Shown one piece after another: positions 26,226 through 26,922 of a stretch of DNA of 34,862 nucleotides; position 1 is the first letter of the stretch; every line of letters starts with the position of its first letter. This DNA is from an uncultured Prevotellaceae bacterium. GTDB taxonomy: Bacteria; Bacteroidota; Bacteroidia; Bacteroidales; Muribaculaceae. The translations under genes were made by a program, and so were the position numbers. The notes under the pieces were generated by a model, which ran no database searches, had not been told where the DNA came from, and saw only the letters and a list, made by a program, of their open reading frames with translations. Location: NCBI GenBank assembly GCA_945921235.1, contig CAMEKH010000008.1, forward strand, positions 1 to 34,862, in the 5' to 3' direction.

Positions 26226-26257
26226 TTTGGAGAAGTGAGAAAAAAGTAGTAACTTTG
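26226..26257 (+). promoter_or_regulatory. Promoter of the structured RNA and redoxin-like gene
   Basis: TTTG (26226-26229), a 20-base spacer and TAACTTTG (26250-26257) match the Bacteroidota promoter exactly. The transcript should begin near 26264, about 127 bases before the start codon. Confidence 0.8.
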
Positions 26258-26263
26258 CAGCGT

Positions 26264-26365
26264 TTTAGGAAATCTATTGCAGATTAAATGCCGAAAATCG
26301 GCGAAGGTAGCACTCACGAGATGTTCTCGCAGTGCAAGGTGGGAAGAGGTTCCCGTCGCTACCTT
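26264..26365 (+). ncRNA. Candidate structured RNA leader, unknown class
   Basis: Nearly the whole stretch can pair. Helix 1 is AATCT/AGATT (26271-26275 with 26281-26285). Helix 2 is GCCGA/TCGGC (26290-26294 with 26298-26302). Helix 3, AAGGTAGC (26304-26311) with GCTACCTT (26358-26365), encloses two arms: CGAGA/TCTCG (26317-26321 with 26325-26329) extended below by ACT/AGT, and GGGAA/TTCCC (26341-26345 with 26350-26354). This is a three-way junction. A second AAGGT at 26336-26340 could pair with ACCTT (26361-26365) instead, so two folds are possible. It sits between an exact promoter and a gene. I do not recognise it as TPP, FMN, cobalamin, SAM or other common riboswitch; it is too short for a tRNA. 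Confidence 0.6.
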
Positions 26366-26390: not shown

Positions 26391-26873
26391 ATGAAGAAAC
26401 AATTATTGGCAATTGTGATTATTGCCTCAATCTTCATTTTCACATCGGCGAGTTATGAAACGCCTGCCGACAGCCGAATAGGCTATAATGCACCGGGATT
26501 TGCGGTGGAAAATGATGAAAGTGCTGTGGAATTGCAGAGCATGAGAGGTAAATACGTGTTAGTGTCGTTTTGGTCGTCGACCGACGCAGAGTCGAGGATA
26601 GCCAACATCACTTACGACCGCGTGGCGCGGAATCACAAGGAATTATCGTTTGTTGCTGTGAATTACGACCCCTCGGAGGCTGTCTATGGTGAGATTGTGA
26701 AAATCGACAATCTGAGAGTCGGGGCGCAATTTCACGATTCGGAAGGAAGTGCATCGAAAATCTACAAGGCTTATCGCTTGGACGAGGGCTACTGTGCGAT
26801 GCTCATCTCGCCTGAGGGCAAGATTGTGGCAATCAATCCTTCGGAAGAAACTATTGAAACTTACATCGGCTGA
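26391..26873 (+). CDS. Thioredoxin-fold (redoxin) protein lacking the CxxC motif, exported
   Basis: A 160-residue protein with a signal peptide (KKQ start, hydrophobic core to about residue 20) and a TlpA/AhpC-like thioredoxin fold: GYNAPGFAVEN, LQSMRGKYVLVSFWSS, FVAVNYDPS, and the cis-Pro-region-like AMLISPEGKIVAINPS. Where TlpA-type proteins have FWATWCGPCR this one has FWSSTDAESR (60-69), so both redox cysteines are replaced (Asp65, Ser68). The only cysteine is in EGYCAML. It therefore cannot be a dithiol oxidoreductase and may bind a partner or ligand. I recall similar Cys-less relatives in Bacteroides. It is preceded by a structured leader and followed by a terminator, so it is a single-gene unit. 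Confidence 0.85.
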   Translation: MKKQLLAIVIIASIFIFTSASYETPADSRIGYNAPGFAVENDESAVELQSMRGKYVLVSFWSSTDAESRIANITYDRVARNHKELSFVAVNYDPSEAVYGEIVKIDNLRVGAQFHDSEGSASKIYKAYRLDEGYCAMLISPEGKIVAINPSEETIETYIG

Positions 26874-26897: not shown

Positions 26898-26922
26898 GAG
26901 CCCCATAGAGGCTCCTTTTTTT
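26898..26922 (+). terminator. Terminator of the redoxin-like gene
   Basis: GAGCC (26898-26902) pairs with GGCTC (26910-26914) over a 7-base loop; the A run before the stem can pair further with the seven T residues at 26916-26922. It lies 25 bases after the stop. Confidence 0.8.

Follow-up and report, generated by a model that had tools for sequence, protein, structure and literature searches.

In the 34,862-nt stretch analyzed here (the window, corresponding to contig C8 of a 2.46-Mb assembly), a gene for a redoxin-like protein is preceded by a structured 5' leader of approximately 130 nt which, judging from comparisons of homologous sequences, probably acts in cis and in a gene-specific manner on the translation or stability of the redoxin mRNA. 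The leader appears to be a new RNA family among structured cis-regulatory leaders, a known kind of element, and its predicted essential core comprises three consecutive hairpins (P1, P2, and P3) and a tail. Few regulatory RNAs have been characterized in Bacteroidales, and the control of translation by leaders is largely an open matter there given the little use of Shine-Dalgarno pairing. A widespread, single-copy leader of one gene, with a diverged form in genetically tractable Bacteroides, is directly testable, and it points to a conserved, uncharacterized thioredoxin-fold protein that lacks catalytic cysteines and is seemingly regulated in these bacteria. The features of the locus are as follows:

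26226-26229, + strand: -33 element (TTTG) of a Bacteroidetes-type promoter, from sequence
26250-26257, + strand: -7 element (TAACTTTG) of the same promoter, from sequence
26271-26275/26281-26285, + strand: P1 hairpin AAUCU-AUUGC-AGAUU, from sequence and congener alignment
26290-26294/26298-26302, + strand: P2 hairpin GCCGA-AAA-UCGGC, conserved more strongly than any other element
26304-26311/26358-26365, + strand: basal stem of P3, 8 bp, extendable to 26303/26366
26312-26314/26331-26333 plus 26317-26321/26325-26329, + strand: hairpin a within P3
26338-26345/26350-26357, + strand: hairpin b within P3
26367-26390, + strand: tail preceding the start codon, from column counts and the Bacteroides alignment A6
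26391-26873, + strand: thioredoxin-fold gene (Thioredoxin_8/AhpC-TSA, ResA-like)
26898-26922, + strand: intrinsic terminator downstream of the redoxin gene

All five Watson-Crick helices proposed in the sequence-only reading were located in the sequence and its fold, directly 3' of the promoter and 24 nt 5' of the redoxin start codon, and the 8-bp stem around two hairpins was found exactly as described. The promoter that had been placed immediately upstream is also present with both elements, and TAnnTTTG recurs upstream of P2, at the equivalent position, in every one of the 48 family leaders with an identified P2; the downstream gene, described as redoxin-like, indeed encodes a thioredoxin fold and may form a one-gene transcription unit with its 3' terminator. 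Neither a terminator nor an attenuator was found between P3 and the AUG in the window leader. Two terminator-like sites were noted on the minus strand, one at the gene start (26408-26426) and one in the leader (26290-26302), the latter being simply P2 read from the opposite strand. An ATG at 26288-26290 (ATGCCG...) was considered as the start of a conserved leader ORF; it is GTG and GAG in the congeners G001 and G002, respectively, and a leader-peptide attenuator or upstream ORF was ruled out because the start codon is not kept. The repeated AAGGT, which had been thought to offer rival partners for ACCTT as in a switch, did not hold up either, as the duplicate is not conserved in the same two congeners.

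The minimum free energy of the leader is -38.7 kcal/mol (z = -2.37, with 4 of 200 shuffles equally good), and the folding energy of this single sequence is weak, suggestive evidence of structure. Such a z-score might be taken to favor chance folding without function, a reading that is hardly credible given the compensatory change across families and the gene-specific retention documented below. Ensemble prediction gave an unpaired fraction of 0.60 for the start codon and 0.42 for the leader, so that the start codon would be neither specially hidden nor exposed.

Among 69 upstream regions inspected from family genomes, 48 shared a common anatomy, that is, TAnnTTTG, a variable P1, a short P2, a variable P3 beginning immediately after P2, the tail, and the AUG in this order. 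The leaders differ from each other through many indels, and the lengths of P1 and P3 vary greatly among relatives. The three-way junction of the sequence-only reading is present in P3 of the window, G001, and G002, but it does not belong to the core, as P3 is mostly a single hairpin elsewhere; it appears to be a genus-level elaboration. The tail of relatives is A/U-rich with a consensus near UAKUAUGAACYUUAA just upstream of the AUG (by column counts), from which the window tail, AUUUAUGGAUUUUAA, deviates.

The sequence-only reading had proposed covariation among homologues as the test of the structure, and comparison of this kind, the decisive test here, supported P2 and P3 as well as P1 of relatives. 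In alignment A1 (30 homologues, aligned by MAFFT with no structure used), 85.6% of the cells of P2 and P3 are paired and the covariation score is 0.401, vs 0.204 for shuffled and at most 0.245 for slid controls. A larger alignment of 56 homologues, which takes in other families and was fitted to the model and is therefore biased towards it, gave 88.7% paired cells and a score of 0.495 (0.208 shuffled, 0.142 slid), with 10 of 13 pairs varying on both sides. P2 is paired in 100% of the cells in these 56 homologues and shows double changes at three of its five pairs; relatives usually have GCCGA-AAA-UCGGC here, the compensatory variants including GUCGA/UCGAC, GCUGA/UCAGC (Barnesiella and Coprobacter), and GCAGA/UCUGC (L084), and its tip mostly reads G-A-R-A-N-U-C. 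In P1, 21 of 48 tetraloop hairpins of relatives carry an AGNG loop (300 shuffles: mean 0.5, maximum 3), which is missing from P1 of the window's genus. The six loop-flanking pairs of 28 distinct AGNG hairpins are 90% paired, vs 46% in shuffled sequences; because selection of these hairpins demanded at least three pairs, fairer evidence comes from pairs 4-6, of which pair 4 is a standard one in 24 of the 28 hairpins and occurs as four pair types. Since homologues share ancestry and shuffles ignore kinship, the covariation scores and loop counts should not be read as probabilities. Overall, the secondary structure of the leader is backed by compensatory change. In three loci (L010, L012, and L015), an AGAG or GGAG tip occurs in P3 and not in P1, as if the hairpin had swapped place relative to P2.

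This pattern also bears on whether the hairpins might be a passive 5' stabilizer, merely protecting the mRNA from decay. The free variation of P1 and P3 would fit such a role, as would the fact that in many leaders no more than approximately 20 nt separate the -7 element from the first hairpin; however, a passive stabilizer leaves the near-invariant P2 tip and tail sequence unexplained, and we consider it rather unlikely. Even so, conservation of the leader could reflect mRNA stability instead of regulation.

We then examined the distribution of the leader and its linkage to the gene. The redoxin-like gene was matched in 238 of 297 family genomes, and the covariance model R2 gave one match per genome in 100 of the 297 (alignment A3 was too diverse for use in the collection scan); in the window's genome, the sole R2 match with an E value below 1e-3 is the leader under study. 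The presence of the gene in 238 genomes but of an R2 match in 100, at the thresholds used, implies that the leader is not needed everywhere. Ninety-six of the 100 matches lie no more than 30 nt from the redoxin-like gene, three lie at 45-76 nt, and one is without the gene. When 80 matches were checked against the gene table, all were on the same contig and strand as the gene, 70 within 1 nt and the rest within 30 nt; translation of the other 20 revealed the gene at 0-1 nt in 16, and for the three at 45-76 nt the distance is to the first open frame found, with masked bases within one of these genes. A weak match in G135 (E = 7.6e-4) had no redoxin downstream and was rejected. The position of the leader upstream of the redoxin-like gene is thus constant, and, because the neighboring genes are different in B. 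fragilis, the leader follows the gene and not the locus. Six loci (L047, L052, L057, L058, L061, and L068, in G183, G037, G056, G239, G219, and G200, respectively) contain a homologue with an MKK-LSY-like start that follows another gene at a short distance; a hairpin, but no P1-P2-P3 leader, separates the two.

Beyond the family, 13 matches with E values below 1e-5 from eight families were detected in an order sample of 198 genomes, 12 of which abut the orthologue while the thirteenth (G484) reaches the contig end. Named genomes with a leader match include Barnesiella, Coprobacter, and Azobacteroides, where it precedes the same gene. Weak order matches of the model R1 (E above approximately 1e-4) were, among those inspected, not upstream of the gene, with the exception of L092, which is upstream of the gene and improved to 5.3e-7 with R2. 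In a phylum-wide sample of 296 genomes, only the window and one other match were observed; the match in G663 (E = 7.8e-4) had no redoxin nearby and was taken as chance.

Nearly all matches sit at an almost constant distance from the same start codon, which also weighs against an independent small RNA, whether stand-alone or cut from the leader, as the sequence-only reading had considered for a processed product. A structured RNA of approximately 100 nt with its own promoter motif would suit this idea, but there is no terminator ahead of the gene and no further copies exist in the genomes, making it improbable.

The downstream protein belongs to Thioredoxin_8 in Pfam and, at a score below the cut-off, is ResA-like in NCBIfam. 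It seems to be exported, with an apparent signal sequence at the N terminus, and this makes it unlikely that the mature protein autoregulates its own mRNA. The window protein is devoid of CxxC, the region reading FWSSTDAESR (SSTDAES), and CxxC is likewise replaced in all members aligned, relatives being FWASYDAxSR-like; within this region, F, W, and S do not vary at all and D and R hardly vary. The nearest solved chain, 4fo5_A, has FWAAYDAESR at the same motif.

With regard to known RNA families, scanning of the window and 40 related stretches against 4227 Rfam 15 families with cmscan yielded no match other than a neighboring tRNA in one stretch, in agreement with the earlier impression that the leader fits no known class. 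Gathering thresholds were used for the window and 20 named relatives, with no match for the leader, and permissive ones for the window region and 20 family leaders; the near-misses CyaR, P9, and sroH were far below gathering scores, and the permissive matches were at chance level. Bacteroidales-1 and Bacteroides-1/2 of Rfam share the taxonomic range of the leader but were among the families without a match in the window or the 40 related stretches. In yeast, AGNN tetraloop hairpins are recognized by the RNase III Rnt1p, and the AGNG loop in P1 of relatives has the AGNN form; however, the leader is part of a bacterial mRNA and P1 of the window has no AGNG loop, so the likeness may serve as a lead only. 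The literature searched contained no description of the leader, the two B. thetaiotaomicron transcriptome papers being covered by chosen words in their main text. The leader resembles orphan candidate RNA motifs from surveys (such as PMC2864571) in being a covarying 5' leader of one gene family in one order, but differs in that its conserved bases are located in hairpin tips and the start-proximal tail and not in an aptamer-like core.

In the proposed mechanism, the leader folds into P1, P2, and P3, leaving the A/U-rich conserved tail beside the AUG, and a trans-acting factor (an RNA-binding protein or a small molecule) might recognize the tail and the conserved loops, namely AGNG of P1 where present and the GARAAUC tip of P2; its binding would then alter how readily ribosomes reach the start codon next to the tail. 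The lack of a terminator between P3 and the AUG, together with a tail adjoining the start codon, suggests that cis action would occur near translation initiation or on stability. Since Bacteroidetes in general rely little on Shine-Dalgarno pairing, a conserved tail where the ribosome lands could plausibly serve as the output element.

Two forms of this cis-leader reading may be distinguished by the kind of factor. In one, an RNA-binding protein or trans-acting RNA would act on the tips, the tail, or both to control translation or decay, for which conservation in short hairpin tips combined with freely covarying stems, common for protein-bound hairpins, and retention of the tail in some Bacteroides with little leader remaining would speak, while the absence of AGNG from P1 in the window's genus means that this tip is not required everywhere; we hold this form as a serious though tentative possibility. 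In the other, the hairpins would form a riboswitch aptamer that binds a small molecule and thereby makes the start codon more or less accessible. A conserved structure that one gene carries in its 5' leader, the conserved loop nucleotides, and the tail at the ribosome site are consistent with it, but the conserved bases are in hairpin tips and the tail instead of an internal loop or junction, the lengths of P1 and P3 are highly variable, neither a terminator nor a conserved rival pairing was found, the downstream gene offers no metabolite clue, and a search of Rfam 15 for a known riboswitch aptamer class in the leader gave no match; a riboswitch is possible but somewhat doubtful. The tip and tail conservation suits a bound protein no less than an aptamer for a small molecule, the chances of the two being about equal. 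More speculatively, the leader might define an order-wide Bacteroidales RNA class by which a thioredoxin-fold protein lacking cysteines is controlled, through a ligand or an RNA-binding protein, without Shine-Dalgarno masking or transcription termination, and it is equally conjectural that this class would comprise the AGNG hairpin, the GARAAUC hairpin, a variable P3, and the start-proximal tail.

The leader that precedes the Bacteroides orthologue has diverged; it includes a stem resembling P3 (YCGGG/CCCGG) and a near-invariant tail, AUAGUAUUAACYAAAACCG, in alignment A6. An R2 scan of the Bacteroides loci gave no match, and no model unites them with the P1-P2-P3 form; based on the gene, position, and tail, the two forms are likely to be homologous. 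A closing helix pairing the 5' end (CGRUUU) with the tail (AAAYCG) was tried and rejected, the combinations observed (G/C 20, A/C 18, A/U 3) showing no clear covariation. Of four Bacteroides genomes, three contain the tail pattern once and one contains it twice. Its segment AGUAUUAACYAAAAYC is nearly invariant in Bacteroides even where the upstream hairpins have apparently been lost, such as in L160, which has little leader left, implying that the hairpins and the tail may have separate roles.
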